Shown: in pieces, positions 1,896 to 60,437 of the stretch
How positions within the stretch are numbered: position 1 is the first letter of the stretch
Layout of the letters: every line of letters starts with the position of its first letter
Assembly: GCA_949751835.1 (NCBI GenBank)
Contig: CATKHK010000025.1
Span: 372,001-436,000 of the forward strand
DNA: 64,000 bases
Direction of reading: 5' to 3'
Source of the DNA: Blepharisma japonicum
Lineage: Eukaryota; Ciliophora; Heterotrichea; Heterotrichida; Blepharismidae
Program-made: the position numbers and the translations under genes
Notes under the pieces: model-generated
The model's database searches: none
What the model was told of the DNA's origin: nothing
What the model saw: only the letters and a program-made list of their open reading frames with translations

Positions 1896-3845
1896 TTAAA
1901 AAAGATTCTTACAAAAAATGCAAGTTTCAGCGCACTTCTTATGAGTGTGATGTCCGCACCTTCTTATTATAAAAGGAAATCCCTCAAGCGGTCCCGCACA
2001 TTTTTGGCATAGGAAAGTCTCATCTATTACATAAGGCTGTAAAATTTCTTCATAAAGCATTTTGAAACATTCTGGGATTTCTTTTTTAGCAGATCTTGAA
2101 GCTGCAGTATAAGCTTTCAAATAGCTTCCTAAAGACATGATAAGATTTTTTATTTCGTCATCACAACCTTCAATATCAATTTCTTTGATAAATTCAACAG
2201 GATTTGGATGGTATTTTAACGCCTCAATAACTGATTTTTTCTTCGTAAAGTTATCTTTTGCTTCAGAAAATGTTTGCTTTCACAATTCTGGGAATTGACC
2301 AATATGTTTCAATCTTAAATCAAAGTTATCAACCAAATCTTCATACTTAATTTTTTCTTTTTTCACCTTAAAATACTCACTTGCTTTATTTTTATCAATT
2401 TCGAATAAAATTGAGACATAAGACGGATTACTTCCAACAAATTCAATTGTATCTGGATGCTCACTGAGGATCCTAAAGCAATGATGTGACCTAACTTCTA
2501 ACGAAATTTCCAATGCTTCAATAATTTTCCCGTGTTTTAAAAAATAGCTATTAATTTCATCTTGGAAAACTTTTGGGATGTTTTTGTACACAAAAACCGC
2601 TTTTGTTACAACATGTGGAGGAATTTTGTCTATAATATATTGAAAATGTATAAGTTCTTTATGACTAAGCACCTGCATGAGGGTTTCTTCAAGCATTTTT
2701 TCATCTTCGGGAAGGGGCATGATCATAACTATCAGACATACCATTTTCTTTGATAAAAATTCTTGAATAATAAAATTTCATACTTGAGAACTAAAAGGAA
2801 TACTAATGGCAAGCTGAGAGGCTTCATGCATCGAGTTATTTTGAATCAGACTGACAATTTGTGACTCCATTATTGGAATTCTGTCAAGCTTGAATTTGCT
2901 TGCAAGCTCATATGCTTGATTATATTTTTTCTTTTCAATTAAATGAATCAGTTTATCTTTTGCTGTTAAAGGCGAAATTTTATAAACTTCAGTTTCTCCT
3001 ACTAAATAAAAGGGTGAATTAGATTGATTGTAAGAGAGAAGAAACTTATTAACAGGTGCTTTCGCTGAGAATGTTAATTCTTGTTGCAAGGAGTATACCG
3101 ATAAATTATTGGCATCAATTTCTAATACATATCCTTGATTAAATGACCCTATTGCTAAAGGAATTGTAGATATCATTATTGATTTTATATGCCGAAAAGT
3201 ATCAAAGCCTTGATTTTGAGAATACTCCAGCACATGAACTGCAGTTCCAGCTGACACAAAGCACATTGCAGCTGATGCCCAATGTATCAAACATTTCGAG
3301 TTATCAGGAATAGTAAGTGAATGCGTCGTTTTTTCTTGTAATAAATTAAAGAACTCAACTTTTGAATTCAATGAAAAACAAACTAAGTGATGATGAATTA
3401 TCATATCTTTCAGCCCATTAATTCCACTTTTCACTGCTCTTTTTGAAACTCTTACTCATCCTTTTTGCATTAAAATTAATTCTGTCTCAGTCGCACAGAT
3501 AATTGCTAATTGCCCCAAATCTTTATTAGCAATCCCAACTTTCATAGGATTCGTGACATCGACATTCATTACCTCTGCCGCTTGTTCTGAATCATACGCA
3601 ATGACTTTATTTTCAGTGCAGCAAGCTACCAAGTTCCCTTGGGTTGCTACATGCTTGATTTTAGTATATGGGCCTATCAATTCTGCTTCCTTTGCTTGTA
3701 TGTTTAGTAAATGAATAAAACCTTTATTTGTCCCTAGCGCTATATATTTCTGTGATATTGCTGCAGAAGTAATTATGTCATCCTGCCTTATCAGTTCTTG
3801 TGAAAAGGCTTGAGCATAAACAGCAAAAGTGAATAATTCAACCAT
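1896..3845 (-). CDS. Vps41-like HOPS/CORVET-type vacuolar sorting subunit
   Basis: A single exon of 649 residues with TGA read as Trp at several sites. The N-terminal 220 residues show WD/propeller-like strands: 'IALGTNKGFIHLLN' parallels the first blade of Vps41, and 'IHWASAAMCFVSAGTAVHVLEY' matches the Vps41 pattern of a Trp-containing blade followed by GTxVxV. The middle is alpha-solenoid. The C-terminus is a RING-like Cys/His cluster (CxxC...C-GHHTHKKC...CxxC), which Vps41, Vps8, Vps11 and Vps18 share. It is shorter than human Vps41 (about 850 residues). As a HOPS subunit it would tether late endosomes or lysosomes to target membranes. Vps8 is an alternative. The ATG lies only 11 bp beyond the stop of the upstream kinase gene. 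Confidence 0.65.
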
Positions 3846-38380: not shown

Positions 38381-40165
38381 CTAATTCTGACTCTTTCTAA
38401 TTAATTCTAAATCTTGTTTGATTGCTTGGTTATCAGGATCTAACTTCAATGCTTGATTCAAATCTGCAGTAGCTGAGTAAAGCTGCCCCATTTCAGCATA
38501 AGCTTTAGCTCTCCTCCAGTGCAACCTTAATTGCAGAGAAGGTTTTGGCTCCAATTTAAATGCTTTATCCACCGTAATTATTACATCCTGGGGCTTTTTT
38601 AATAGTAAGTAGCAAGCAGAAATGTTTGTATAAATTGAAGCTTTCTCTTCTTTATTTTTTTTACAAAGACCTAAAGCTTCTTTATATACTTTTAAAGCTT
38701 CTTCAGCGTTGCCAATTCTAAATGCATCACTTGCAGACTGCTTAAGTTTTTCATACAAAATTCTATTATTTTCTGATGTATATTTTGAGGCAAGAATTTT
38801 TGCATGCTGATTTTGTGGTTCTATTTGTAATACTTGGTTAGCTAAAGCTAAAGATTCATCTTTATTTTCAATAGCTTCAGCTTTTCTCAGCAAAACCTTG
38901 CATTTAAGTCTTAAATTATGAGTAATCAGTTCCAGAGCTTTATCACACATTTTCACACAATTTTCTTTATCTTCTTGCTTTAAAAATATTTGTGCTAAAT
39001 TTGCAATTGATAATTCATTCTCTGGATCAATTTCTAAACTTTTTGTATATTCTATTTTGGCTTCATCGATTTTGTCCTCTTTATATAGCAAATCGCCTTT
39101 ATTTTTTATTAAATTAGATTCTCGTCTTTTTTCAAGCATTTCAATATCTTTTTGAATACTTTCGTCATCAGGAATAAAAGATTTAGCAGAATTATATTCA
39201 TCTATTGCTTCAGAAATCATTCCTTTTCATGCCAAAATGGCGCCTATTCTGATCTTGCAAATTCCTTTTAATAAATCTTCGGTGCATAAGCTAATGCTTT
39301 TATATAGGTCATCCAATGCTTTTTGGAATTCATAAGTCTTCATGTAGCAAACAGCTCTATTCATTAAGCAGGCGAGATTATTCTGATCAGCCTTAATAGC
39401 ATTTGAATATGCACTTATTGCAGACTCAAAATCACCTTTCGAAAATAGATCATTTCCTTTATCTTTTAGCCATAATGGATGAGATTCGTGAACTGGGCCT
39501 TCTAAAGGTTTAATATTGTGAGGCAAGGGTGGCTCATTTTCATTGCTTTCTCTTGCGGGGACATTTGGGTTTTTTCTTGGTGTGAACTCAATTTTCTGTT
39601 TAAATGTTCCTCTTACTTCAGGTAAATCTGTTCTTTCTTTAAATATTTCATTATTTAAGCTTGGAATTGTGGAAGGACTAAAAATATCTTGTTCAGCTTT
39701 AATCTTTTCTTCTTCTTTTTTCTGCTCAATAACTCTTCTACGATCATCGTCCAGTCTCATTTGTTCTGTGACTGAAAAACGGTCCATTTCAATTTTGTGC
39801 TTTTCCAAGGCTTCTTGGGTTTCTTTAGAATTTTGTTCAAATTCAGACAAAGAAAGTGCTCTACGTTGCTTTGCGAGATCTTTGTCAGAGCATGTGAGTG
39901 ATGCCCAGGATTTTCCGATGATAAATTTGGCAAGAATCAGCTCTAAGCAAGCTTCTTTGGCAATTGCACGATTTAGAGGGCTTTTATAATCGATATCTTC
40001 AGCAAGATCCCACTCCATGAAAATTTTTGGAGATTTAAGATGAAACTTGACGTAGTTTCGAGATAGAAACAGATCAAAGTAGCCTTTTTTACTAAGGATC
40101 GGATTTCGACAGGGGACTGTAATTTTTATGATTTCAAATTCCTGCTCCCAAGTATATTTACTCAT
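38381..40165 (-). CDS. DNAAF4: dynein axonemal assembly factor 4-like (DYX1C1), CS plus TPR domains
   Basis: 594 residues from the preferred ATG at 40165 (MSKYTWEQ...); an in-frame ATG 11 codons earlier is less likely because the CS domain starts directly at MSKYTW. Residues 1-90 form the CS domain, followed by a charged linker. Next comes 'IEFTPRKNPNVPARES', which matches the conserved INFTPR...RES of DNAAF4, and 'PLWLKDKGNDLF', which matches its first TPR (PEWLKDKGNKLF). TPRs then continue for about 350 residues, more than the three of the 420-residue human protein. One TGA at 39221-39226 is read as Trp. DNAAF4 is a cytoplasmic co-chaperone with HSP90/HSP70 needed to pre-assemble axonemal dynein arms. 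Its 5' end is the left edge of the segmental duplication. Confidence 0.88.
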
Positions 40166-40445: not shown

Positions 40446-43400
40446 TTAACGATAAACGCTATAAAAGCCTCTATTAAAGCTCGCCATTTCATACTGCCTT
40501 TGATAAAGCTTTACAGCATCTTCGCCTGAAGCCAATCTCAAAATCTCTTTGCAAATTGCATTACTTAGATTTTCCGCTCCCGAATAAGAGTTTATATCTA
40601 GAAAGGCATTAGTTCCTCGCGTCGTTTCACCAATCTCTTCAAAAGCATTTCTTGAGTTTTGGCTTGTATAAAATCCATGAATTGGGATGCAATTTCTTGC
40701 AGCTTTTGCAAGCTCTTCATGATAATTTTCCATTGAATTAGATTGGAATTGTTTATGCTTCTCTTTCTTGCTAAATTGATGATTAAACGGATTTGAAGAT
40801 GGACTATTTTCAAAGTCTCCAATTAGAATTACTTGAGAAATATTTTCATGCTTATATCTATCATTGATATATTTCAATGCTTTATTAATTGCTTCATTCC
40901 CTTTTCCCCCTTGAGTGCGAGCTTCTTTGATAAAGGATTCTAATACTTCTGGCTTATTTGATCAAGGAGATGCTTGAAAAATTAAATCAGGAGGGCATGA
41001 AGTCGTTCTATAAATGCAATATTTAATTTGAAAACACCCTGAACTAACTCCTTTTTTGACTAAAATTTCTCGAGTGCGTTTAAAAATAATCCCAATTGTA
41101 TTTTTGGCATTTTGGAGCAGATGAGACATGGACTCCGTAGCCTGAAGCAAAATAATGATATTATAGCTATTTTCCGTAAAGTTTGAAATATTTTGTTCAA
41201 GTATAAAACTTTTGAATCCATCAAGATTTCCTTGAGTGATATTATTTAAAAATTCCATAGACCTATCATGGGTCTCTTTTACATATTTCACATGCTTATT
41301 TTCATTGCTATTTTTGGTTTCATAAAATTCGTTTCTTTTTTGACGTAAAAGCTCATAGATTGTTGCATTGTCGCGAGCACTTGAAATATCTATATCACTG
41401 ATTTGAAATTTTTGTAACTCTTCAGCAAGCAATACCATGCTGAAAGATCCTTGCTGTCCTTGTCTTGCTGACCTACCCATTATTTGAGTTTCTTCTGATG
41501 CCTCTTCAGATAAGAAAGATTGAATTACATGGACTCCACCATTACTTTCAACAGTATGATTTTGACATTTAAAATCAATTCCGCGTCCAAAGACTCTCGT
41601 AAACAAACTGACATATCCAGATATTGTTGCCTGATTAATCAATCTATAGCGATCTCCTGACCTTAAATCTTCTGTTACTATTTGGATATGAAATCGCTTT
41701 CAGCTTGGATTAGAGTTATTGTAAAAATCCATTAATTTTTCTGAAGTTTCAAAAAATATTAGAATTGCTCTCTCTCCTTGTTTTTTTCCTATAATTTGAC
41801 TATTAATTTCTTCAATTATCCTTTGAAAATAATTTTCTTTATCATTTTCAATATGAATATCAGCATTTTCTCTGAAAGATCTATTATTTTCTCCAAACAC
41901 AGAAGGCATATAGCTATAATTTCTTATATTATAATCATTTTCAATAATATTTTTTTCGTGGTGGCCAAGAGTTTTTAGAGTTCCTGTTACTCCCATAATG
42001 TGAGTAAAATAATTTGGCATCTCAGCATAGGAAAATTCTCCACAATTGATATCAATTCCAATGTTCCTTGCAAGGCTTTGTTTGCTTATGCGATTATTTT
42101 CATGCTCTTTATAATAAGTCCACATAGTATAATATCCGAATCTCCAACCGAATGACACTCCGTCATACATTTTGTACCCTATTTGATCATCTTGCAAAAT
42201 ATATTCATGAGAATCCAAATATTTTAGATAAAATATCATATCTTTTGTCGCTTCGATAATCAATTCTTGATAATTAGAAAAAAAAGACCGGCATTTTATA
42301 AATTCTTGAGATTTAAATATATCTATTAAATTGAGATTTCCTTTTCTTCTGCTTCAAATGAGATTAATCAGATTGGTTACAAGATCATTCTTAAGAGTAG
42401 TACAAGGCCTATACATTTTTCCATAAAATGTTTTGCTAAAAAATACATCTACTTCATCAATCAATAATATTCTTGGCCTTTCGCATTCTGAGTAAGTTCG
42501 AAAACCTGCATTTTCAGATTTTGGGTATATTTCATTTTTAACAAATTTTCTTATATCTATTTTTCTATTGATCTCATTTTCACATAGTTCATTAAAAGTT
42601 CCATAGCTGATTCAGTAAGAAATATTTAATCAGTTAAATAATTGACTAAATTCGTTATGATCTCTTTTGCTTAAGTGCTCGCTATAGCACGCGCAACTTA
42701 CACTGAACCCCAATATAGCCAGCATTGCAGATGTTAGGCCTAAAGTTACAGATTTTCCTTCTCCTGTCAAAATTTGTATGAGGTTATTACCAAATGTTGT
42801 TTGGCTACTATAACCAATCCCAACAATTCTAAATATTGATAAAATTTGAACAGGATGAGGTGACAATATGATTTTATTATTATTCTCGTTTAAATCAGGG
42901 TTAGCTTTTTTTATATTTAATAAAGTCCACAATGAAGCTAAATAAGCAAGAAGCTTTGGAATAATTTTTTTATCTGTTGTGTTTAAGTTTTTCTTAGAAC
43001 ACATAAAATCAGAATCAAAATCAATAGTAGAGAACTTACTACATATCAGTGCTGATAGTGCATCTATTGCTTCACCTATACTTGAGTCCGATGTTAACCC
43101 TATATATTTACTGCTAATCTTTTTATAAAATTTGTTATACTTTATAAAGTGCTCGGCTAATGCAGTTTTATCTATATTCGATCCATCTATTCTTTCCATA
43201 ACATAGTCTATATTGGATATCTCAGTTCTTTCTGCCCATAATCTATGTTTTTCAGTTTCAAAAAACTTATGCTCATTAATGATTATAAGTCCAGTGTTCT
43301 CTTTTTCTAGCTCATCATAGATTGCTCTCACTTTTAAGCTATTATGACCCTTCTTAAATTGAACTAAAAGTTTATCAATTAACTTATCAAGCCATTCTTT

Positions 43401-46400
43401 CATTGGAGGAAAGTTTATTGATATGGTTTTTATGCTGATTAGCGATTTAATAGCATTACTAGTTGAGCTTGAAGGGTTTGAAGCTATAATTTCATGAATT
43501 TTTGCTTTATCTTTAAAAGTATTTTCAATTTTATTCAATCATTCTGTTAAGTCAATTCCTTCAATATTTATTGAACTTTTAAATGAATATAGGAGTCTAT
43601 ACCCAATTCTGAGTTTTGCATAGTCAGTGTCTAGGAAGTCATCTTTATTAATGCACTCAAATGTATTTTGTTTGACTTTATCAATTTCTGCTTTCAACCA
43701 ACTAATACATTCATCATAGATTTGAGAGAAGTTTAAAATATGACTTTCAATTTCTCCAAACTTCTTCATTGCGCGAAAGTTTTCTTTTAATGATTTAAAG
43801 CGATCATCAAGTATTTTTTCGTGGTTTATTTCATCATCTTGAACTGTGAAATTTTTTAAATAACTTGCAATGCCAGAAAATTCATTATTTAGTTCATCTG
43901 AAATTTCTGAATAGTTTTGACAATATGATAATTTCAAATAAAGTTCTATTGGATTGTCATCATAATAATATTCTTCTCCAAATTCTTCATTATCATAACT
44001 TTTACAGTGCAAGAACTTGAATTCTTTTAAAGACTGAAGTAATATATCATATTCTTTGATTTTATCAAGATAATAGTTACTAAATCGGGTATTATTAGGA
44101 GGTTTTGATCTATTATAATTTATATATATATTTACAAAGAAGCCTGATAAAGAAGAATAAGTACTTTGAGTGAGTCTGTCAAGAAAATCTAATCTGCTCC
44201 CATTTTTTTGGTCAATAAGTTTAATATTGAATTCTACTATTCTTTGAAAGTCTTTTCAGTTGGATACAATAATATTTATTTTCTCATCATTTATATTTCA
44301 TAAGCAGCGACATAAGTCTTCAAATTTTTTATTTATTTCTTTTCCTAACTTTTTATCAATGAGATTTTTTCCATCAATTCCTAAAGCCTTTCAAATAATT
44401 TGATAATGCTCATATATTGCTGCTTTCTCCAACGCTAATTCTAGATTATTTTGCTTTAAAGCATTGCATGCTTCGTCAATAATCAAATTCAAAACATCCT
44501 TCAGCTTGCATTTTGAATCATTTATTGACTTTGAACCTCTTTTATTAATCATGTCATCGATAATTATTTGACACAATTTTTCTATATCCTTGTCTTTAGT
44601 AGCAATTTCTAGTAGAATTGCTCTATCTTCTTTATTTATCTTTAAATTTTTCTTCCATTCTTTAATTTTTAGCTTTACATTATTTTCAATCTCCTTTGGG
44701 AGAATTTGATAAATGTTTTCGATTGATTTAATTTTTTGTTTTTTATCGTAATAATTGCTTTTACTCATTTCTTCTTCAATACTTTCTATTTTTTTATTCA
44801 CAATTTGTTTTATTTTTTCAATGCAGTCGGTAAAATTAGGATTTTGTTGCGCTGCTTTTTCAAGCTCTTTAATAATATGTTTTGGACTGATAAAATCTTT
44901 ATAAGATTCAATTGGGATTTTGTCGAAATTTTCTGGAATAGATTGTGGAAGATTTTTAATCCTTGTTTTTAATCCGAAAATCTCAGGTCCTAATGGACTT
45001 GTGATTTCTGAATAGCTTAAAATGGGACATATTTTTTCAAGATTTCCAATAAAAGTCTCTGCATCACAGTAGCTATATTTATTAATTTCATGTTCAATTC
45101 TTTTAATCCATTTCTTTATTTTATCTGCAAAGAAATTATAAAAGTTTACTTCTGACTCGACTAGGCTTAATTTAACCTCTTCATCAACATAGCTAAAAAT
45201 TGTTTCTTTGGCTCTTTTGATATTCTTTTGATTTTCTACAACCTTATTTATATTTTCATCTTCAATTTTTATGCTTGCCCTATCCAAGCAAAATTTACTT
45301 GCTCCCATAAGATTGACTATAATTGATTGTATTTTATTTGAGATTATTCTGAAATTTCTGCGTCTCTTAAGCTTATCCAAATTATTTATTAATATTTCTG
45401 CTTCAGAAAATTTACAATTATCTATGCAAGTAATGATATGTTTTTCAGTTTCACTAATTTGTTTGCAAAATTCATTTTGAATTTCTGAAAAGCGTTTCGA
45501 AAACGTGGTTTTATTAGCTGTGATTTGATCTATTAAAGATAGGGATTCAAATATTAACAAAGATAAATAGTATTGATTTATTTGATTCTCATGTTTATAG
45601 TGTTCAGATGTATTAAATAGCTCTTGCTCAATACGATTTATTTTAGTATTGTATTCTTCAAGTATATCTCTACATTCCAAATAGTCCATAATAGATTGAG
45701 CTTTATTTCTTAGATCAATTCCTTTCTCAAAGGCAGAGTATAATCCCTGAGAAGCTTCTTTGCATTGGGATTCTGTCAATGATTCTTTATGAATGAATCT
45801 TTCTATTATATCGAAATAAGCCTGAAAACTTTGATGGATTTGCTGCCAATTTTTCTGAAGAAATTCAGTAAATTTCATTCATAAATCTTCAGAGTTTATA
45901 AATGATATTTCTTTGCATATTTTTAAATAATTTAATGAATAGTTTGCTTTTGTTCAGTTAATATTTTCCTTAGTATTAGTACTTTTGATTTGCTTTTCTT
46001 CTTCTTTTGCAGGTATCTTAAATTCATCCATATCTTCATGATAATTTTCTTCAAGTGCATTAGTTTCCAAGTTATTTTGATCCTCAGCAGATGATTTTGA
46101 TTCTTCTATTTCATTGAGAAATTCAGCTTTAATTTCATTTAAAACTTGATTAATACGGCCTTCAAATTGAATATAATAGCTTTCTCCTTTTTTTTCTAAT
46201 GAGGGTATAAACTCTTTTAAAGTTTCAAGTGATTTCATTTGATTTACAATATCAAAAGCTATTTTAATTGAGCTGGAGTGTTCAATATTTAAGTCAATAT
46301 CTTTAAATTTTGAATCAATTTTATCCACGAACTTAATAATTTCTTCATTAATTTTGTCTAATTCTGACTCACAAGCACCGGGGCAAATTCTTTCTATTCA

Positions 46401-49400
46401 CTCCCCTTCTTTTAGTCCTGATAGCGAATTTGATAATAAATTAAAATCTATTCTTTCAGAGCTTGCAAAATCATTAAGAATCTCTTTAATGCTACTCCTA
46501 AAGTTCGTCATTTTTCTCTCTATCTCAAATATTAGCCTTTTATGCGTAGCTCTCACTTTTGTCTCAACCTCACTGATTTTCATTAGTAATTCCATTTCTT
46601 CAAAAATTGCTTTAGCTGCTGATAAGCTATGGGCATCTTTATCTCTTATAATATCAAGTATTTTTTTATCTAGTTTATTATAATGATCAAAATATTGCTC
46701 TATTGCATATTTGATAGAAGAATCTAAGTTTTCAATGTCAATAATATCTTTGAACACATCTATTTCTTTAATATTGCTCAAAATTCCGAAATAATTAATT
46801 ATAATATCAATATCATTTTCTTCAATTTTATCCTTAGCGTATAATGGCGCTAAATTCCCAACTAAAGCCAATATACAAGATTTTATTATTTCTAAGAGTT
46901 TTTGATATTTTATGTCTAAATCACTCAAATTCAAATATCCCCCAATATTTTTTAAGTAGGCTTTAACTTCTTTGATCTGATTAGAACATAAATTAAAATC
47001 TTTAATTTCAAAACTCTTTTCTGCTTTCTTTATCATTTCAATAATAAAATTCTCATATATCAGCTTCAATTCAGAATTTTTCCCATTAAACTCTTCGAAA
47101 ATTTCAGCAATAAGACTCAAATTTTTCAGCTTAGCTTTTGCAACTTCAATTTCAAAATTTTCAATATCGTTTTTTTCATTTAATTTGAGCTGTTGTTCAA
47201 TATTATTCAAGAATTCTTCAGAAGAAGGAGTTTTTCCTTTTAGATGGTCTTCTCTAATTTTTTCTGATTCTTTAATTTCATTAAAGCTACGCTTATATGC
47301 TTCTACAGTATCTTTGAGTAGCACATTCTTTTCATGAACTGAACTATTGAATAGCATAATAGCAGAATTATATACTTCTTTAGTTCCTTCAATTACTGAA
47401 TTGACACAATTGTTATATTTATCTTTATATTCTTTAAATAAGCTAGATAATGTTTTTAAATCATCTAGCCTGTCTTTTATCATAAAATAATCTTTTATTC
47501 GTAGTGCAGTTTCAATCTCTCCTTTATAGACCTCAATTTGAATTTCTATTTTATCTCTTGATTCTACTGTCAAAAAACAATTAAAAATATTTTCAGGATC
47601 ATTAATAGGGGTTATCTCAAGAATTTTATGGAGAATATCTTCAGGGTCATCAGTCAATGGAGAAATCACATTAATATTACCTCTTGTTTTTTCCTCAATG
47701 TCAGCTATTAAATCTCTTGTGAAGCTATCATGAATTTTATTAATTGAGTTATTAATTCTTCCATGAATATTTTTAATTTCATTTTTTTCATATCTTGTAA
47801 ATGCATATGCAAAGGATTGAGAATGCTTTTTTAATCCAGGACAAAATTTAGCAAGAGAATGAGCTAAATTTTCGAATCCCTGAAATCTACCACCCTCATC
47901 TTTTCCACTTATTAAAATTATTGGTCTTACGCTTTTGCATTTTTGTATTGCATTAACGATTCCTCTGGTATTTGCTATATCAACTTCAGCTCCTGCAGTG
48001 TCCATAAGTCCTGGTGTATCACATACAAAAATTTCTGATTCTGTAGGAATTTTTACTGCAGTTATATTTTTGGTTTCAGATTGATTTAAATTAGAGACAT
48101 TAACCTTTTTGAGTACTTTATCATTTATTACTATTGGAACAATATGCTCTACGCCATTCTCTATTATTTTCGTCAGTATGGAGCCAGCTAGAAAATGGAC
48201 TGTAGTAGATTTTCCACACCCAGTTGACCCAATCAATAAAATTATATCTTTATTTTCCAAATTTTCAGTTGCAATTTTTGATTTTTCTATTAATCTAAAT
48301 AGTTCTTTAAAATTTATAGGGCTTAGGTTTGTAATAGTTTCTTTGATCAGTCTGACGGCATCGTCCCAACTTTGATTTTTTGAATACTTTTTCAAATTAT
48401 CAACAAGTCCATAATCTATCTTAGTATCAAATTTTCGCGCTTCTTCATTCAGAATTTCAAACTCTTGGTCTATATCTATTTGGTTTATCTTTTGCAAAAG
48501 CATTTCTGGAATTATAAATTTAAAGGATTTTAAAGAAAAATAGCACAAAATCTTTGATAAATGCTTTTCTAAACTTCATGGCATTGATTCAGTGTCTTCG
48601 TAAAGATCATCTAGAAACTTTATTTTGCTTTGAATATAATTGCTTTCTCTTTCTTTTAAAATCTTGTCCACTAATTGATTATAAAGCAAACAAAAATGTT
48701 TAAGCTCTTCTAAGGTCTTTTCTTCTTCATCTACTGACTCTTGCTCCCCTAGCTCCTTAAAACTCTCAATATCAGCTTGTGTCTCTTTTATCTTTTCAAA
48801 CAAGCTTTCAACATTTTTAATTTTATATTTTTCAAGCCCAAGTTTAAATTCTTCTTCAATATTAATTTCGCTTATTTTATCTGAATCAATTTTTTCATTT
48901 TCAAATGTTTCATAATTTATAGAAACTTTTTCAAGATCAGCAAATAATTTGTTCAATTCTGTTAATATTTCTTCTTGCTCTTTTTCTTTTCGATAGTTTC
49001 CTTTTTTATTTCAAAGATTAATATATTTTTTGCAATCCTCAATTTTTTTCAATAATTGTTCTTTATTGTTAATCTGATACTTTGCGAAGCCCTCTTGTAT
49101 TTTTTGTTGTAAATCATATAAATTTTCATTCTGGTAATCTTGAGTAAAACTACTTCTGCATTCAGTGAGCTGATCTAGTGGTGATTGCTCTTTTATATTC
49201 CCTAAGTTAGGTGCTTCATTTTTCTGCTCTTCAAAGAGAGGCACTTTGGCTTCATCAATTTTTTGAGAAATAGATTGAAAATCATTATCATCAGGTGTAA
49301 TTATATTATTATTTATTGGCTTTTCGCCAAAATAGATACTTTTCTCTATTTTTAAATTTAGATCAGCTTTATTTTCTTCAGAATTTTCTAGATCATTAGT

Positions 49401-49787
49401 TAAGATATCCAATGACTCTTCATTTATCTCTTGGAGAATAATCTCAATGCCAACATCTATAATTTCTTCTCCATTTTCTTGAATTGAGATCATCTGCTTG
49501 ATTGGTAAGCCTTGACCGAGATGGATATTGGCGGATCCCAGCTCAATTAAATCTGATGAAAAAGCCTTTAATATTAAGAAATCTCGATCATATTTTTCGA
49601 CTTCTGAATAAATTCGCCATGCTTTATTTAGAATCTCATTATCTGATTGGTGAACAAATTTTCCTGTTACTTGATTAATGAGTTGAAATTTGATCTCAAG
49701 GCTAGAGTTGATCTTAGCAATATTCTTTATTTCAGCATCAATAACTTTGATAACCATCATCACTTCAGGTTTCAATTTCTCCACCAT
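40446..49787 (-). CDS. giant GTPase-SecA motor-vWA fusion protein, copy A
   Basis: A single exon of 3,113 residues; about ten TGA codons are read as Trp and there is no internal TAA/TAG. Residues 1-120 may be a C2-like beta domain (weak). A G domain follows: GSTGCGKST at 520-528, DTPG at 590-593, and a poor G4 near FTRYEKNE. Residues about 750-2300 are helical repeats. Then comes a SecA-type motor: HPVQ, ILTGEGKS (Walker A, 2341-2346), LSKRD, SYGTFNE, DEVD (Walker B, about 2444-2447), GVTGTL, GRGID and GRSARQG (2771-2777), in SecA order. The C-terminal 215 residues resemble a vWA domain whose MIDAS is degenerate (QATESMS). SecA is normally a bacterial or plastid translocase; no signal, transit or membrane segment is seen here. 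Function unknown, partner paralogue adjacent. Confidence 0.88.
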
Positions 49788-50537
49788 TTATATTATTATA
49801 AGCTATAAAAATATTGGGGCTCAAGTGGACATAAAAGATGGAAAATGGCGAAATTTTTAGAGAGAGAGTTATCTATACAAAATTTAGTGCAAAAAATACT
49901 AGAAACAAGTAAAACCCCTACTATTTTCTAAAAATTAATTTGCCTCAATAAATGAGAATTAAAGAAACCATAAAAAAATTAAAAATATTTTAGGAAAGCA
50001 TGCATGCAGTATTTATATTTCATCCATAAATTATCGTTCTTGAGACTCTAATAGCAGATTGAAACAATCAAGCTCTAATTGGTAGAAGTTATAGCCCCAT
50101 TTTTATATGTAAATAAGAGCCTTTCAAGACATAGCCTTATTATTATCGTTAAGTATATAATTTAAGACTTGGAAAAGTAAATAAAAATCTAGAAACTTTA
50201 ACATCTATTTTAAAGTAGCAATTTAAGCTTTATTTGAAAGAATCAATATTAATAAATAAATAAATATGAAAAATATCTGTTCTTAGAAGTTAAGCGAATT
50301 ATTAATAATTCTTTATTAAAGCAAGCTTAAAGTCAATTAAAAACTTATAAAAGTTATAAATTAGTATTTTTAATATCTTAAAATTAGCATATTTCCAATT
50401 TTATTATATTCATTAGCTGCTTTTACTGTCTTAACAATGCAAAATTTCCTGAATCATGCAGGCCTAAGATTTTTGCAATTTAAATTGATTCATATAATAT
50501 CTATGCATTGATATTATATGAAGCTAAAATTTGATAA
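49788..50537. other. upstream region of giant gene A, duplicated non-coding DNA
   Basis: About 750 bp aligning with 60438-61182. In the unduplicated arrangement this was a divergent promoter between the giant gene and dynamitin. Well-conserved blocks include the 60 bp just upstream of the giant gene's ATG ('ttggggctcaagtggacata') and the 'cctgaatcatgcaggcctaa' block next to the dynamitin start. No ORF or RNA gene was seen. Confidence 0.7.
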
Positions 50538-50575
50538 ATAGAAGGAAAAGTCCAAGTATTAGAAACTCCAGACTA
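50538..50575 (+). pseudogene. 5' scrap of dynamitin gene with lost start codon
   Basis: It aligns with the first 38 bp of the intact dynamitin gene at 61183. The ATG has become ATA (50538-50540), a TAT-TAA end follows the breakpoint, and homology stops after 'ctccagacta'. It is therefore dead as a dynamitin gene. Confidence 0.85.
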
Positions 50576-50834
50576 TTAATTTTATTGTCATTTTAATATA
50601 AAAAAAATACCTAAGAAAGCTCATGGGAATTGTTAGCTTACCACGATTTAGAGGACTTTTATAATCGATGTCTTCAGCAAGACTCCATGAAATTTTTGGA
50701 GATTTAAGATGAAACTTGACATAGTTTCGAGATAGAAAGAGATCAAAGTAGCCTTTTTTACTAAGAATCGGATTTCAAAAGGGAACTGTAATTTTTATGA
50801 CTTCAAATTCCTGCTCCCAAGTATATTTACTCAT
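50559..50834 (-). pseudogene. truncated DNAAF4 5' end; chimeric 91-codon open frame
   Basis: The ATG at 50834 starts a copy of the CS domain of the DNAAF4-like gene (residues 1-64 align, with a two-codon deletion and Cys-Arg changed to Phe-Trp at a TGA). After the breakpoint at 50642 the frame runs on through 66 bp of filler and antisense to the dynamitin scrap, ending at TAA 50559-50561. It has no TPRs, so it cannot be a normal assembly factor. The promoter was duplicated too, so it may be transcribed. A relic or a nascent orphan CS-domain peptide are both possible. Confidence 0.8.
50576..50641. other. 66-bp filler at the duplication junction
   Basis: It lies between the end of copy A homology and the start of copy B homology. 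It matches neither flank in my reading. It is AT-rich and could be inserted DNA from end-joining or sequence that has since drifted. Confidence 0.7.
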
Positions 50835-51104
50835 TTTTTGAATTATTAAAATAAAGTAATATAGCAATTCGCTATTTAATTTAAATATGATTAATTAGAA
50901 ATATGTATGCAATATAAAGAGAAAATATAAACCAATTAATTAATTTCGATTTACCTGCAATAGGGTAAAAAATAATTAATAATCTCATTAGAAAATTTAA
51001 GAATTGCAACATTCAGTAAGAATATATTTAAAATCGTTAAATATATACTATATATTATTACAAGTATCAAAAATTTTGATAATCTTTTGAAATTATCTTA
51101 AGAT

Positions 51105-54100
51105 TTAGCGATAAATGCTAGAAAAGCCTCTATTAAAGCTTGCCATTTCATACTGTCTTTGATAAAGGTTCACAGCATCTTCGCCTGAAGTCAATCTCAA
51201 GATCTCTTTGCAAATTGCATTACTTAGATTTTCCGCTCCTGAAGAAGAATTTATATCTAAATAAGTATTAGTTCCTCTTGTCGTTTCACCTATCTCTTCA
51301 AAAGCATTTCTTGAGTTTTGGCTTGTATAAAATCCATGAATCGGAATGCAATTTCTTGCAGCCTTTGCCAGTTCTTCATGATAGTTTTCCATAGAATTTG
51401 GTTGGGAATGTTTATGCTTCTTTTTCTTACCAAATTGATTATTAAACGGATTTGGAGGGGGACTATTTTCAAAGTCTCCAATTAGAATTACTTGAGAAAT
51501 CTTTTCATGCTTATGTCTGTCATTGATATATGTCAATGCTGTATTGATTGCTTCATTTCCTTTTCCACCTTGAGTACGAATTTCTTTGATAAAGGATTCT
51601 AATACTTCTGGTTTATTTGACCAAGAAGATTCTTGAAATATTAAATCATGAGGGCAAGAAGACGTTCTATAAATGCAATATTTAATTTGGAAACACCCCG
51701 GACTAACTCCTTTTTTACCTAAAATTTCTCGAATGCGTTTAAAAATAATCCCAACTGTATTCTTGGCATTTTGGAGAAGATGAGACATGGGCTCTGTAGC
51801 CTGAAGCAAGATAATGATATTATAGCTATTTTCTGTAAAGTTTGAAATATTCTGCTCAAGTATGAAACTTTTGAATCCGCCAAGATTTCCGTGAGTGATA
51901 TTATTTAAGAATTCAATAGACCTATCATGAGACTCTTTAACATATTTCACATGCTTATTTTCATTACTATTTTTGGTTTCATAAAATTCATTTCTTTTTT
52001 GACACAAAAGTTCATAGATTGTGTTATTATTGCGAGCATTTAAAATATCTATATCACTGATTTGGAATTTTTGCAGCTCTTCAGCAAGCAATACCATGCT
52101 AAACGATCCTTGCTGCCCTTGTCTTGCTGATCTACCCATTATTTGAGTTTCTTCTGATGCATCTTCAGATAAGAAAGTTTGAATTACATGAACTCCACCA
52201 TTATCTTCAACAGTTTTATTTTGGCATTTAAAATCAATTCCACGTCCGAATACTCTGGTAAATAAGCTAACATATCCAGATATTGTTGCCTGATTAACCA
52301 ATCTATAGCGGTCTCCTGACCTTAACTCTTCTGTCACTATTTGAATGTGATGTCGTTTTCAGCTTGGATTAGAATTATTATAGAAATTCATTAGTTTTTC
52401 AGAAGTTTCAAAAAATATTAGAATTGCCCTCTCTCCTCGGTTTTTTCCAGTAATATGGCTATTAATTTCTTCAATTATCCTTTGAAAATAATTTTCTTTA
52501 TCATTTTCGACGTGAATATCAGCATTTTCACTGAAAGCTCTATTGTTGTCTCCAAACACAGAAGGCATGTAGGTGGAATTTCTTATATTATAATCATTTT
52601 CAATAATAGTTTTTTCATGATGGCCAAGAGTTTTTAGAGTCCCTGTTACTCCCATAATATGAGTAAAATTATTTGGCATTTCAGCATAGGAAAAATCTCC
52701 ACACCTTATGCTAATTCCAATGTGATTTTCAAGGCTTCGCTTGCTTATGCGACCATTTTCATGCTCTTTATAATAAGCCCACATAGTATAATATCCATAG
52801 CTTGTATGGAATGACACTCCATCATGCATTTTGTACCCTATACGATCATCTTGCAAAATGTACTCATGCGAATCTAAATATTGAAGATAATATATCATAT
52901 CTTTTGTTGCTTCAACAATCAATTCTTGATAATTAGAAAAATAAGACCGGCATTTCATAAATTCTTGAGATTTAAATATATCTGTTAAATTGAGATTTCC
53001 ATCTCTTCTACTTCAAATGAGATTAATCAGATTTTTTATAAAATCATTTTGAATTTTAGTAGCGGGCCTAAAAATTTTACCATAAAATGCTTTGCTGAAG
53101 AATACATCGACTTCATCAATCAATAATATTCTTGATCGCTCACTTTCTGAATGAACTCTAAAATCTGCATCCTCTGAATTCGGATATATTTCATTTTTAA
53201 CAAATTCTCTTATATCTATTTTGCTATTGATCTCATTCTCACATAGTTCATTAAAAGTCCCATATCTGATAAAGTCAGAAATATTTAAGCAGTTAAATAA
53301 TTGACTAAACTCTTCATAATCTCTTGTGCTTAAGTGCTCACTATAGCATGCACATCTTACGCTGAATCCCAATAGAGCTAGCATTGCTGATGTTAGACCT
53401 AAAGTCACAGATTTTCCCTCTCCTGTCAAAATTTGTATGAGGTTATTGGCAAATGTTGTTTGGCCGCTATAGCCAATACCAATCATCCTAAATATTGATA
53501 AAACTTGAACAGGGTGAGGCGACAATATCGCTTTATAATTATTCTCATTTGAATCAGGGTTAGTTTTTTTAATATTCAAAAGAGTTCACAATGTAGCTAA
53601 ATAAGCAAGAAGCTTTGGAATAATTTTTTTATCTATTGTGTCTAATTTTTTCTTAGAAGACATAAAGCCAAAACCAAAGCCAGCAGAGAATTTACTACAT
53701 ATAAGCACTGAAAGTTCATCAATTGCGTTACCTATACTTGAATCTGTTGTTAATTTTATATATTTACTGCTAATCTTTTTATAAAACTTTTCATACTTTG
53801 TAAAGTGCTCGGTTAATACAGTTTTATCTATATTCGATCCATCTATTCTTTCCATAACATAAACTATATTGAATTTCTCTGTTCTATCTGACCATAATCT
53901 ATGCTTTTCGGTTTCAAAAAATTTATGCTCATCAATTATTATAAGTCCAGTGTTCTCTTTTTCAAGTTCATCATAAATCGCTCTTACTTTTAAGCTGTTA
54001 TGGCTCTTAAATTGAACTAAAAGCTTATCAATTAATTTATCAAGTCTTTCCTTCGCTGGAGGAAAGTTTATTGATATAGTTTTTATGCTGATTAGTGATT

Positions 54101-57100
54101 TAATAGCATCATTAATTGAGGTTGAAGGATTTGAAGCTAGAATTTTATGACTTTCTACTTTTTGATTAATGGTATCTTCGATTTTATTCAATATTTCTGT
54201 TAAATCTATTCCTTTAATATATATTGAATTTTTAAATGAACATAAGAGTCTATAGCCAATTCTAAGCTTTGCATAGTCAGCGTCTAAGAAGTCTTCTTTA
54301 TTAATACACTCGAATGTATTTTGTTTGACATTATCAATTTCTGCTTTCAATGAGCTAATACATTCATCATAAATTTGAGAGAATTTTAAAATATGGCTTT
54401 CAATTTCTCCAAACTTCATCATTGAGCGAAAGTTTTCTTTTAATGATTTAAAGCTATCATCAAGTATTTTTTCGTGGTTTATTTCATCATCTTGAACTGT
54501 GAAATTCTTTAAATAGCTCGCAATGCCAGAAAATTCATTATTTAGCTCATCTGAAATTTCTAAATAGTTTTGACAATATGATAATTTCAAATAAAGTTCT
54601 ATTGGATTACTATCATAATAATATTCTTCTTCAAATTCTACATTATCACAATTTTTACAATGCAAGGATTTGAATTCTTTTAAATTCTGAAGTAATATGT
54701 CATACTCTCTGATTTTGTCAAGATGATAGTTACTAAATTGGGTATTATTAGGAGGTTTTGACATGTTATAATTCCTATATATAGTTACAAAGAAATCTGA
54801 CAAAGAAGAATAAATGTTTTGAGTCGGCCAATCAAGAAAATATAACCCGCTTCCATTTGTTTTGTCAATAAGTTTAATATTAAACTCGACTATTCTTCGA
54901 AAATCTTTTCAGCTGGATACAATAATATCTACTTTTTCATTTTTTATATTTCTTATGCGGTGGCATATGCCTTCAAATTTTTTATTTATTTCTTCTCCTA
55001 GCTTTTTATCAATGAGATTTTTTCCATCATTTCCTAAAGCCTTCCGAATGGTTTGATAATGCTCATATATTGCTGCTTTCTCCAATGCTAATTCTAGATC
55101 ATTTTGCTTTAAAGCATTGCATGCTTCATCAATAATCAAATTCAAAACTTCCTTCAGCTTGCCTTTTGAGTCATTTATTGACTTTGAACCTCTTTTATTA
55201 AAAATATCATCAATAATTATTTGACACAATTTTTCTATATCCTTGTCTTTAGTAGCAATTTCTAGTAGAATTGCTCTTTCTTCTTTATTTATCTTTAAAT
55301 TCTTCTTTCATTCTTTAATTTTCAGCTTTACATTATTTTCAATCTCCTCTGGGAAAAACTGATAAATGTTTTCGATTGATTTAATTTTTTGCTTTTTATC
55401 GTAATAATTGCTTTTACTCATTTCTTCTTCAATAATTTCTATTTTTTTATACACAATTTGTTTTATTTTTTCAATGCAGTCGGTAAAATTAGGATTTTGT
55501 TGCGCTGCTTTTTCAAGCTCTTTAATAATATATTTTGGACTAATAAAATCTTTATAAGATTCAATTGGAATTTTGTCGAAATTTTCTGGAATAGATTGTG
55601 GAAGATTTTCAATCCTTGTTTTTAATCGTAAAATCTCAGGTTCTAATGGACTTGTGATTTCTGAATAGCTTAAAATGGGACATATTTTTTCAAGATTTCC
55701 AATAAAAGTCTCTGCATCACAGTAGCTATATTTATTAATTTCATGTTCAATTCTTTTAATCCATTTCTTTATTTTATCTGCAAAGAAATTATAAAAGTTT
55801 ACTTCTGACTCGACTAGGCTTAATTTAACCTCTTTATCAACATAGCTAAAAATTGTTTCTTTAGCACTTTTAATATTCTTTTGATTTTCTACAACCTTAT
55901 TTATATTTTCATCTTCAATTTTTATGCTTGCCTTATCCAAGCAAAATTGACTTGCTCCCATAAGATTTACTATAATTGATTGTATTTTATTTGAGATTAT
56001 TCTGAAATTACTGCGCCTCTTAAGCTTATCCAAATTATTTATTAATATTTCTGCTTCAGAAAATTCACAATTATCTATGCAAGTAATGATATTTTTTTCA
56101 GTTTCACTAATTTGTTTGCAAAATTCATTTTGAATTTCTAAAAAACGTTTCGAAAACGTGGTTTTATTAGCTGTGATTTGGTCTATTAAAGATAGTGATT
56201 CAAATATTAGAGAAGATAAATAGTATTGATTTATTTGATTCTCATGCTTATAGTGTTCAGATGTATTAAATAGCTCTTGCTCAATACGATTTATTTTAGT
56301 ATTGTATTCTTCAAGTATATCTCTACATTCCAAATAGTCCATAATAGATTGAGCTTTATTTCTTAGATCAATTCCTTTTTCAAATGCAGAGTATAATCCT
56401 TGAGAAGCTTCTTTGCATTGGGATTCTGTCAATGATTCTTTACTAATGAATCTTTCTATTATAGCGAAATGAGCCTGAAAATTTTGATGGATTTGCTGCC
56501 AATTTTTCCTAAGAAACTCAGTAAATTTCATTCATAAATCTTCAGAGTTTTTAAATGATATTTCTTTGCATATTTTTAAATAATTTAATGAATAGTTTGC
56601 TTTTGTTCAGTTAATATTTTCCTTAGGATGAGCACTTTTGATTTGCTTTTCTTCTTCTTCTTCTTTTGCAGGTATCTTAAATTCATCCATATCTTCATGA
56701 TAATTTTCCTTAAGCGCATCAGTTTCCAAGCTATTTTGATCCTCAGCAGATGATTTTGATTCTTCTATTTCATTGAGAAATTCAGCTTTAATTTCATTTA
56801 AAACTTGATTAATACGGCCTTTAAATTGAATATAATAGCTTTCTCCTGTCTTTTCTAATGAGGGTATAAACTCTTTTAAAGTTTCAAGTGATTTCATTTG
56901 ATTTACAATCTCAAAAGCTGTTTTAATTGAACTGGAGTGTTCAATATTTAAGTCAATATCTTTAAATTTTGAATCAATTTTATCCACGAACTTAATAATT
57001 TCGTTATTAATTTTGTCTAATTCTGACTCACAAGCACCGGGGCAAATTCTTTCTATTCACTCCCCTTCTTTTAATCCTGCTAACGAATTTGATAATAAAT

Positions 57101-60100
57101 TAAAATCTATTCTTTCAGAGCTTGAAAAATCATTAAGAATCTCTTTAATGCTACTCCTAAAGCTCGCCATTTTTCTCTCTATCTCAAATATTAGATTTTT
57201 ATGCGTAGTTCTCACTTTTGTCTCAACCTCACTGATTTTCATTAGTAATTCCATTTCTTCAAAAATTGCTTTAGCAGCTGATAAGCTATGGGCATCTTTA
57301 TCTCTTATAATATCAAGTATTTTTTCATCTAGTTTATTATAATGATCAAGATATTGCTCTATTGCATTTTTGATAGAAGAATCTAAGTTTTCAATGTCAA
57401 TAATATCTTTGAACACATCTATTTCTTTAATATTGCTCAAAATTCCGAAATAATTAATTATAGTATCAATATAATTTTCTTCAATTTTACCATTAGTGTA
57501 TAATGGCGCTAAATTCCCAACTAAAGCCAATATACAAGATTTTATTATTTCTAAGAGCTTTTGATATTTTATGTCTAAATCACTCAAATTCAAATATCTC
57601 CCAATATTTTTTAAGTAGGCTTTAACTTCTTTGATCTGATTAGAACATAAATTAAAATCTTTAATTTCAAAACTCTTTTCTGCTTTCTTTATCATTTCAA
57701 TAATAAAATTCTCATATATCAGCTTCAATTCAGAATTTTTCCCATTAAACTCTTCGAAAATTTCAGCAATAAGACTCAAATTTTTCAGCTTAGCTTTCGC
57801 AACTTCAATGTCAAAATTTTCAATATCGTTTTTTTCATTTAATTTGAGCTGTAGTTCAATATTACTCAAGAATTCTTCAGAAGAAGGAGTTTTTCCTTTT
57901 AGATGGTCTTCTCTAATTTTTTCTGATTCTTTGATTTCATTAAAGCTACGCTTATATGCTTCTACAGTATCTTTGAGTAGCACATTCTTTTCATGAACTG
58001 AACTATTGAATAGCATAATAGCAGAATTAAATACTTCTTTAGTTCCTTCAATTACTGAATTGACACATTTATTATATTTATCTTCATATTCTCTAAATAA
58101 GCTAGATAATGTTTTTAAATCATCTAGCCTGTCTTTTATCATAAAATAATCTTTTATTCGTAGTGCAGTTTCAATCTCTCCTTTATAGACCTCGATTTGA
58201 TTTTCTATTCTATCTCTTGATTCTACTGTCAAAAAACAATTGAAAATATTTTCAGGATCATTAATAGGGGTTATCTCAAGTATTTTATGGAGAATATCTT
58301 CAGGGTCATCAGTCAATGGAGAAATCACATTAATATTATCTCTTGTTTTTTTCTCAATGTCAGCTATTAAATCTCTTGTGAGGCTATCATGATTTTCATT
58401 AATTGAATTATTAATTCTTCCATGAATATTTTTAATTTCATTTTTTTCATATCTTGTAAATGCATATGCAAAGGATTGAGAATGATTTTTTAATCCAGGA
58501 CAAAATTTAGCAAGAGAATGAGCTAAATTTTTGAATCCCTGAAATCTACCACCTTCATCTTTTCCACTTATTAAAATTATTGGTCTTACGCTTTTGCATT
58601 TTTGTATTGCATTAACGATTCCTCTGGTATTTGCTATATCAACTTCAGCTCCTGCAGTGTCCATAAGTCCTGGTGTATCACATACAAAAATTTCTGATTC
58701 TGTAGGAATTTTTACTGCAGTTATATTTTTAGTTTCAGATTTATTTAAGTTAGAAACATTAACCTTTTTGAGTACTTCATCATTTATTACTATTGGAACA
58801 ATATGCTCAACGCCATTCTCTGTTATTTTCGTTAGTATGGAGCCAGCTAGAAAATGGACTGTCGTAGATTTTCCACACCCAGTTGACCCAATCAGTAAAA
58901 TTATATCTTTATTTTCCAGATTTTCAGTTGCGATTTTTGATTTTTCTATTAATCTAAATAGTTCTTTAAAATTTACAGGGCTTAGGTTTGTAATAATATT
59001 TTTGATCAGTCTAACTGCATCGTCCCAACTTTGATTGTTTGAATAATTTTTCAAATCATCAACAAGTCCATAATCTATCTTAGTATCAACTTTTCGTGCT
59101 TGTTCATTCAGAATTTCAAACTCTTGGTCTATATTTATTTGGTTTATCTTTTGCAAAAGTATTTCTGGAATTATAAATTTAAAGGATTTTAAAGAAAAAT
59201 AGCACAAAATCTTTGATAAATGCTTTTCTAAACTTCATGGCATTGATTCAGTGTCTTCGTAAAGATCATCTAGAAACTTTATTTTGCTTTGAATATAATT
59301 ACTTTCTCTTTCTTTTAGAATCTTGCTTACTAATTGATTATAAAGCAAACAAAAATGTTTAAGCTCTTCTAAGGTCTTTTCTTCTTCATCTACTGACTCT
59401 TGCTCCCCTATCTCCTGAAAAATCTCAATATCAGCTTTTGTCTCTTTTATCTTTTCAAACAAGCTTTCAACATTTTTAATTTTATATTTTTCAAGCCCAA
59501 GTTTAAATTCTTCTTCAATATTAATTTCGCTTATTTTATCTGAATCAATTTTTTCATTTTCATAATTTATAGAGACTTTTTCAAGATCAGCAAATAATTT
59601 GTTCAATTCTGTTAATATTTCTTCTTTCTCTTTTGCTTTTTGATAGTTTCCTTTTTTATTTCGAAGATTAATAATTTTTTCACAATCCTTAATTTTTTTC
59701 AATAATTGTTCTTTATTGTTAATCTGATACTTTACGAAGCCCTCTTGTATTTTTTGTTGTAAATCATATAAATCTTTATTCCGGGGATCTTGAGTAAAAC
59801 TACTTCTGCATTCAGTGAGCTGATCTAGTGGTGATTGCTCTTCTATATTCCCTAAGTTAGGTGCTTCATTTTTCTCCTCTTCAAAGATAGGCACTTTGGT
59901 TTCATCATTTTTTTGAGAAATAGATTGAGAATCATTATCATCAGGGATAACTATACTATTATTTATTGGCTTTTCGCCAAAACAGATACTTTTCTCTATT
60001 TTTAAATTTAGATCAACTTTATTTTCCTCAGAACTTTCTAGGTCATTAGCTAAGATATCCCATGACTCATCATTTATCTCTTGAAGAATAATCTCAATGC

Positions 60101-60437
60101 CAACTTTAATAATTTCTTCGCCATTTTCTTGAATTGAGATGATCTGCTTGGTTGGTAAGCCTTGAACGAGATGGATATTGGCGGATCCCAGCTCAATTAA
60201 ATCTGATGAAAAAGCCTTTAATATTAAGAAGTCTTGGTCATATTTTTCGACTTCTGAATAAATTCGCCATGCTTTATTTAGAATCTCACTATCAGATTGG
60301 TGAACAAATTTTCCTGTCACTTGGTTAATGAGTTGAAATTTAAGCTCAAGACTAGAGTTGATCTTAGCAATATTCTTTATTTCAGCATCAATAACTTTGA
60401 TAACCATTATCATTTCAGGTTTAGATTTCTCCACCAT
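51105..60437 (-). CDS. giant GTPase-SecA motor-vWA fusion protein, copy B
   Basis: A single exon of 3,110 residues, TAA stop, several TGA codons read as Trp. The architecture equals copy A: P-loop GSTGCGKST at 517-525, DTPG at 587-590, a helical middle with EE/KK-rich coiled-coil stretches, then SecA motifs TGEGKS at 2338-2343, DEVD at 2441-2444, GVTGTL ending about 2601, GRGID at 2731-2735 and GRSARQG at 2768-2774. A vWA-like tail runs from about 2870. The MIDAS-equivalent is QATEPMS, even less canonical than copy A. All motor motifs are intact in both copies, so both are probably under selection for ATP hydrolysis. Small differences include an expanded EEEE run near 3' of residue 1270 and a shortened KNEKID region near residue 300. 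Whether it moves polypeptide, RNA or something else cannot be told. Confidence 0.88.

Follow-up and report, generated by a model that had tools for sequence, protein, structure and literature searches.

SecA is the motor of protein export in bacteria and plastids. A SecA-like motor that is conserved, expanded and under constraint in a eukaryote whose genome yielded no bacterial-type SecY raises the question of what else this engine can pull. We analysed a 64,000-nucleotide stretch of the Blepharisma japonicum genome (the window; G000:C25:372001-436000), which contains two adjacent giant genes, A and B. The genome comprises 45.2 Mb in 224 contigs, and the host contig is 485 kb long. The results showed that both proteins carry a SecA-type motor lacking part of SecA, together with a GTPase-like domain and a von Willebrand A (vWA)-like tail, and that they belong to a family shared with a few bacteria. 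These findings suggest that a protein-export motor has taken on a new job.

Genes A and B were confirmed as two intact, real single-frame genes. Ciliate code 6, in which TAA and TAG encode glutamine, was tried and dropped, since TGA still breaks the frames, and translation table 4, in which TGA encodes tryptophan, gave two clean genes. Blepharisma stoltei is described as a ciliate with an AT-rich genome of 41 Mbp in which UGA encodes tryptophan (PMC9942806). The telomere repeat reported for that species is absent from the window and from the other family loci examined. In the stretch of gene A that could be aligned to relatives, three tryptophans are TGA-coded (W2284, W2475 and W2693); this alignment, like that used for hhalign, was made without the bacterial locus L091. 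W2284 and W2475 are tryptophan in 15/15 and 16/16 members with a letter at the column, six of the members being bacterial, and W2693 falls at a variable position. Bacterial contamination as the source of the two genes was rejected on the basis of in-frame TGA codons at conserved tryptophan positions, eukaryotic neighbours and the 485-kb contig. The features of both genes, with the evidence for each, are as follows (AF2, AlphaFold2; NBD, nucleotide-binding domain; PPXD, preprotein cross-linking domain).

51105..60437, minus strand: gene A, a single frame of 3110 codons, open from ATG to TAA, with 9 in-frame TGA read as tryptophan, encoding in order a C2-like domain, a coil, a G domain, a long helical middle region, a SecA-like motor and a vWA-like tail
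60078..60437, minus strand: gene A C2-like domain, residues 1-120, a predicted eight-strand sandwich (AF2 model and Foldseek)
58248..58970, minus strand: gene A GTPase-like domain, residues ~490-730, with Walker A GSTGCGKST (517), DTPGLMD (587) and a weak G4 TRYE (motifs, alignment, profile search and model)
53928..58220, minus strand: gene A middle region, residues ~740-2170, 3.6% proline plus glycine, probably alpha-helical (composition; AF2 helices at 740-860)
52068..53525, minus strand: gene A SecA-like motor, residues ~2305-2790, with NBD1, PPXD-sized insert and NBD2 (phmmer, hhalign, Foldseek, Pfam and spacing)
52653..53099, minus strand: gene A insert from DEVD to GVTGT, residues ~2447-2595, with the position and size of the SecA PPXD (phmmer, model and spacing)
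51147..51836, minus strand: gene A vWA-like domain, residues ~2868-3097, metal-site aspartate lost, QATEPMS (VWA_2 below cut-off, Foldseek and motif)
40446..49787, minus strand: gene B, tandem duplicate of gene A, 3113 codons, open from ATG to TAA, with 14 in-frame TGA read as tryptophan; the proteins are identical at 2770/3115 alignment columns
49428..49787, minus strand: gene B C2-like domain, residues 1-120 (alignment to gene A)
47589..48311, minus strand: gene B G domain, residues ~493-733 (motifs, alignment and genome G-domain search)
41409..42866, minus strand: gene B SecA-like motor, residues ~2308-2793 (motifs, Pfam, motor searches and spacing)
40488..41177, minus strand: gene B vWA-like domain, residues ~2871-3100, metal site lost, QATESMS (Pfam scan and motif)

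The SecA-type motor and the domains fused to it

The original prediction described two adjacent giant genes with motifs in SecA order and a full SecA-type motor. All ten motifs searched were found once per protein and in the expected order in A and B alike, and the tandem NBD1 and NBD2 carry SecA-type motifs (Walker A GEGKS, DEVD, GVTGT, GRGID and GRSARQG). Walker A, DEVD, GRGxD and GRxAR were retained in 10/10 ciliate motors read, a set without the decayed copy on contig C98. Pfam SecA_DEAD (PF07517) scored above its cut-off in both proteins, over ~58 residues around the P-loop. When the C-terminal 1003 residues were compared with B. subtilis SecA by phmmer, one alignment (2e-11) covered NBD1, the insert and NBD2 over 460 residues. 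Against five chlamydial SecA proteins of normal size, hhalign gave an E-value of 3e-19 (one comparison, with no database), and homology stopped just past motif VI. Foldseek with the motor model returned SecA for all of the best 32 PDB matches (1.4e-14 to 1.5e-7), with DinG and others from 1e-5.

Between motifs II and III lies an insert matching the cross-linking domain in position, size and phmmer alignment, whose binding of preproteins is putative. DEVD, which reads DELD in L091, lies 155 amino acids from motif III in A and B and 154-168 amino acids from it in 17/17 family motors measured. In the AF2 model, means over ten-residue blocks of the predicted local distance difference test (pLDDT) were 65-91 in 12/15 insert blocks, uneven in NBD1 and 24-51 in NBD2. 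Pfam Helicase_C also matches the motor, above cut-off in gene B. The profile and structure searches were a check on whether the motor is a generic superfamily 2 (SF2) helicase without the cross-linking insert, and this candidate was rejected on the phmmer match to SecA, the 32 SecA structures ranked first and the SecA-sized insert. A SecA-type motor was thus borne out by phmmer, hhalign and Foldseek homology together with the PPXD-sized insert.

The word "full" did not hold. Motif VI and the vWA-like domain are only ~85 residues apart, which leaves too little room for the complete SecA helical scaffold, two-helix finger, wing and C-terminal linker; none of these was found in the A/B motor by spacing, by the end of the hhalign alignment or in the model. 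A and B resemble SecA (PF07517; B. subtilis SecA, PDB 1m6n and 3iqy) in the order and similar spacing of NBD1, insert-sized segment and NBD2, but they lack the full scaffold, wing and linker and carry additional C2-like, G and vWA-like domains in the same chain. SecA works with bacterial-type SecYEG, whereas no bacterial-type SecY was found in the ciliate genome searched, whose assembly completeness is not given. Its three SecY-family genes (on C8, C17 and C39) are Sec61-alpha-like, with the Sec61 plug in 3/3, which supports the earlier remark that no SecYEG was in view.

SecA_DEAD proteins lacking the scaffold part have been described before. The secondary SecA_DEAD proteins reported in Planctomycetes and elsewhere by Kamneva et al. 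2015 (PMC4452313) resemble A and B in having a motor without most of SecA_SW (scaffold/wing); they adjoin type I secretion genes, and no such genes are among the ten scanned neighbours of A and B. The terms GTPase and von Willebrand are absent from the main text of that paper, and a transcript table for Daphnia lists a SecA DEAD-like domain (PMC5037449). Searches of open-licence PMC papers gave no description of a G domain-SecA-vWA architecture.

We then assessed the G domain in an alignment of 13 rows. The G2-region threonine and DxPG were invariant in 13/13 rows and GxxxxGKST was present in all 12 rows that reach the P-loop, the row of bacterial locus L033 being too short. The G4 motif [NT]KxD was replaced by TRYE in A and B, by TKYx or TNYH in other ciliate copies and by TKYK in L091; among bacterial members, the canonical TKMD was found only in chlamydial L033, with other letters in L034, L069, L070 and L090. 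Pfam MMR_HSR1 scored 23.1 bits against a cut-off of 21.9 for a 381-residue piece of gene A and 15.3, below cut-off, in the full-length scan. The Rad17 P-loop model also passed for that piece (24.7 versus 23.8), so the GTPase call from sequence alone is soft. In a PDB profile search, the top rows matched the P-loop area only, including ABC transporters and the GTPase Der, and septins (from 3.6e-5) and GIMAP4 (3.9e-4) ranked below several unrelated P-loop ATPases.

Foldseek with the AF2 N-terminal model (mean pLDDT 66; predicted TM-score, pTM, 0.45) gave a single match below 0.001, mitofusin 2, followed by Toc34, bacterial dynamin, IRGB10, IIGP1 and GBP1. The septin/GIMAP4 and dynamin-like/IRG matches run counter to the domain not being a GTPase. 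The predicted P-loop G domain stands as GTPase-like, resembling dynamin, septin and AIG1, but softly, given the full-length Pfam score and the degenerate G4. It shares the P-loop, switch-region threonine, DxPG and fold neighbourhood with dynamin-like, septin/AIG1 (GIMAP) and IRG/GBP GTPases and differs from them in its G4 and in its fusion to a SecA-like motor.

For residues 1-120, AF2 placed strands between residues 9 and 120, and Foldseek returned many C2 domains with probability near 1.00 and E-values of 6e-3 and weaker; sequence searches gave nothing in the PDB and nothing above cut-off in Pfam. No Pfam family scored above its cut-off in the middle region of gene A, of which the AF2 model covers the 740-860 part. 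The vWA fold was suggested by Pfam VWA_2 (0.05 and 0.04, below cut-off) and by Foldseek matches including integrin and TFIIH entries, the latter of which we take to be vWA subunits, with weak model blocks (25-72). Among paralogues, the metal motif is NAGQ in C169b, C169c, C169d and C140 and an intact DATGSMS in C14a, C14b, C169a and C98b. The degenerate vWA-like tail of the original prediction is thus correct for the metal site of A and B, and the degeneracy is a local loss, as four paralogues are intact.

Relatives in the ciliate genome and in bacteria

A genome search with the G domain listed 18 places, 12 of them strong (E 6e-70 or better): three on C14, three on C169, two on C25, two on C208, one on C98 and one on C140. 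One C169/C208 pair has nearly identical coordinates and may represent two versions of one stretch. The remaining six matches were weak (four on C63, one on C102 and one on C14), and motor searches revealed further decayed pieces on C98. The ratio of nonsynonymous to synonymous substitution rates (dN/dS) was 0.28 overall for the A/B pair and 0.14-0.50 for six other paralogue pairs; with all seven below 1, the family is under purifying selection. The four C63 matches cluster together (G000:C63:240019-254002, E 3e-6 to 5e-4) and might represent a further P-loop family in the ciliate.

Some paralogues are associated with CapZ-beta, the actin-capping beta subunit (Pfam PF01115). It was found at seven places in the genome, three of them in frames of ordinary CapZ-beta size (266-280 amino acids) and four located ~500-570 bases upstream of a family G domain, as follows.

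C140:60387-61109: CapZ-beta near a family G domain (L031/L032)
C169:1420-2139: CapZ-beta near a family G domain (L024)
C208:9340-10062: CapZ-beta near a family G domain
C208:1429-2142: CapZ-beta near a family G domain

In-frame fusion was read at two of these four places. On C140, CapZ-beta, G domain, motor and vWA-like tail all lie in one frame, and in C169e CapZ-beta and G domain share a frame before the contig end is reached.

Bacterial relatives were surveyed in 232 Chlamydiota genomes, 369 sampled Gammaproteobacteria, a wider phylum sample of 398 genomes and one pattern-based scan of genome contigs. The contig scan, made with the ciliate alignment, gave two loci in metagenome-assembled genomes (MAGs): L034 (Gammaproteobacteria, 3462 amino acids) and L033 (Chlamydiae, a frame open at both contig ends). 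In Chlamydiota, 198/232 genomes matched at 0.001, mostly at the level of ordinary SecA, and 4/232 stood far out (2e-96 to 1e-142). In Gammaproteobacteria, 9/369 matched at 1e-14 and 3/369 at 1e-90 or better. Among the 398 genomes sampled from the phylum of the gammaproteobacterial MAG, only the MAG itself matched at 1e-20; the query alignment for the 369- and 398-genome searches included L034 and L033, so G002, the genome of L034, matches by construction. Two pattern-based scans of viral contigs gave no relative confirmed by tblastn, and a 467-residue piece of L090 matched no plasmid at 1e-8.

The strong relatives come from seven bacterial genomes, with a G domain in 6/7 and an intact vWA motif in 3/7. 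L034, L069, L070, L090 and L091 are complete open reading frames (ORFs) of 2792-3464 amino acids (stop to stop) in which the G domain precedes the motor. In L033 the G domain is incomplete and the motor largely present, and L071, at a contig end, comprises a fragment of the motor with no G domain in view. An intact vWA motif (DATGSM) occurs in L034, L069 and L090; no vWA motif was found in L091 or in L070, the latter stopping shortly past the motor. The view that this architecture is special to eukaryotes was therefore overturned by these ORFs in Chlamydiota and Gammaproteobacteria. The IcmL/DotI family, a marker of Dot/Icm secretion with relatives also in conjugation systems, was present in 3/3 gammaproteobacterial carriers, 0/4 chlamydial carriers and 0/14 controls. 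Separately, L072, L073, L074 and L092 (in G089, G099 and G414) are large SecA-like ORFs of another build, from 2843 to over 4400 amino acids, and a frame on G099:C4 reaches 5178 amino acids; such large bacterial ORFs are only distant kin of the A/B family.

To place the ciliate motors, we used trees rooted on ordinary SecA. Normal-size SecA was sought at 13 loci: five full-length ORFs were used, six loci had none and two (L087 and L088) were too short. Neither the decayed copy on C98 nor C169e, which is N-terminal only, entered the trees. In a 31-row tree, made without L072, L073 and L094 (the motif VI search gave no end point), the ciliates formed one clade (100/99) among the bacterial giants and grouped with four bacterial rows (98/96). 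In a 28-row tree, from which the long branches L091, L092 and L093 were also removed, these values were 95/99 for ciliates and 97/98 for ciliates with three bacterial rows. An approximately unbiased (AU) test on the 28-row tree, made after the first tree was seen, rejected a single bacterial clade (p-AU 0.022).

An architecture common to a ciliate and a few bacteria, probably living inside other cells, points to gene exchange, and the ciliate probably acquired the family from such Chlamydiota or Dot/Icm-marker Gammaproteobacteria. The opposite direction, in which intracellular bacteria captured a protist family and the bacterial members are derived, is on the unlikely side but deserves weight; it bears on origin and would fit the mechanism proposed below. 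Table 5 of PMC4256840 lists lfa2470, a SecA DEAD-like gene of the intracellular gammaproteobacterium Legionella fallonii, among genes transferred from eukaryotes; its likeness to A and B is by description only. The nesting of ciliates among bacterial rows in both trees and the AU test speak against this direction, yet the family stem is very long (1.93-1.96 changes per column, with a program warning of long branches meeting) and a single eukaryote is included, and the long stem leaves the root and the direction of transfer unsure. Either way, the same giant architecture in Chlamydiota, Dot/Icm-marker Gammaproteobacteria and a ciliate gives a concrete instance in which the exchange of a complex machine between bacteria and protists can be tested.

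Proposed function and rival explanations

We propose that A and B, both intact, belong to a lineage-expanded family, shared with bacteria, of giant nuclear proteins that act as membrane-directed polypeptide-pulling ATPases. The N-terminal C2-like domain, or CapZ-beta in some paralogues, would recruit the protein to membrane or actin, as predicted fold and sequence suggest. The divergent dynamin/septin/IRG-like G domain could then serve as a nucleotide-controlled assembly or membrane switch, judging from its fold and motifs. A long, presumably helical scaffold would join it to the SecA-like ATPase, whose two NBDs and insert, homologous to those of SecA, may form a clamp for ATP-driven pulling or unfolding of a polypeptide. 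This ATPase would act without the SecA scaffold and wing, in a genome in which no bacterial-type SecY was found. The vWA-like tail may hold a partner or substrate, in a metal-dependent manner in some paralogues and, given the lost motif, probably not in A and B. Taken whole, this reading is tentative, slightly short of an even chance in our judgement, and its single homology steps are held more firmly; of the two translocases first suggested for A and B, a regulated polypeptide translocase is plausible and a nucleic-acid motor less likely.

Several results weigh against this proposal. In the hhalign comparison, the query DEVD fell off the chlamydial motif II, and the alignment was uninformative on the insert. 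The model of the SecA-vWA part was poor overall (mean pLDDT 54, pTM 0.40), and TM-scores to SecA were only 0.21-0.30 by query length, because domain packing was poorly predicted. The motor of L091 is degenerate. The C2 and G-domain fold matches are weak, the best being 8.5e-4, and GTP specificity is doubtful in the ciliate G domains because their G4 is degenerate. The vWA metal motif (DxSxS/DxTxS) is lost in both window genes. The long family stem, the single eukaryote in the trees and the listing of lfa2470 also weigh against the proposed origin.

Chlamydiota are intracellular. The bacterial relatives come from groups that include intracellular members, and the ciliate family is expanded in tandem; this suggests that these proteins may act where the cell meets intracellular bacteria. 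A wider version of the proposal is rather doubtful: a SecA-type motor may have been turned into a SecYEG-free, membrane-directed extractor or unfoldase under dynamin/IRG-like GTPase control, moved between intracellular bacteria and protist hosts and multiplied there, with some copies gaining an actin-capping domain, and would serve the host-symbiont interface or cell-autonomous defence.

A purely host version of this role, in which an IRG/GBP-like G domain and the C2-like domain coat bacterial vacuoles while the motor extracts or unfolds proteins and tandem expansion reflects an arms race, is unlikely. The mitofusin, bacterial dynamin, IRGB10, IIGP1 and GBP1 matches of the N-terminal model (E 8.5e-4 to 2.4e-2) fit it, as do the arrangement of copies in tandem, the decay of some of them and the variation in N-terminal modules. 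A scan for defence families gave mad8 for gene A (0.0012) and LeoBC for bacterial L090 (5.9e-8), the latter in its favour, with each match lying around the G-domain P-loop; gene A and L090 matched no other known anti-phage family, and L034 matched none. The G-domain matches are weak and at fold level, bacterial members with the same architecture are a misfit for a purely host role, and dN/dS below 1 in 7/7 pairs gives no average sign of positive selection.

A motor acting on RNA or DNA instead of polypeptide is quite improbable. An SF2 helicase core is common to SecA and would suit such a motor, as would the Helicase_C match of gene B; the segment from DEVD to GVTGT is SecA-sized and aligns with the SecA insert, and the folds closest to the model are SecA, with DinG and others only at 1e-5 and weaker. 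A eukaryotic SecA for post-translational export, for example via Sec61, has the motor's homology and three Sec61-type channel genes in its favour but is very improbable for a giant protein with C2-like and G domains that lacks the SecA scaffold, wing and C-terminal parts, in a genome where no bacterial-type SecY was found, and the chlamydial carrier G001 has a separate normal-size SecA-like ORF of 1025 amino acids.

Neighbourhood and tandem duplication

The GC content of the window is 27-37% in 4-kb steps. The ten window proteins scanned around A and B include a dynein heavy chain, a U5 116-kDa factor and dynamitin-like, Vps41-like, TPR and EF-hand proteins. At the DNA level, the duplicated A/B unit spans 9837 columns at 92.5% identity. 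The synonymous rate between A and B is 0.06-0.08 across the first 1500 codons and 0.36-0.43 across the last ~1100, and this difference between the 5' and 3' parts suggests recent gene conversion in the 5' half. Downstream of gene A, at ~50640-50830 of the window, the duplicated unit contains a remnant of the TPR gene (38381-40165), derived from its 5' end, indicating that the duplication carried a piece of the neighbouring gene along.

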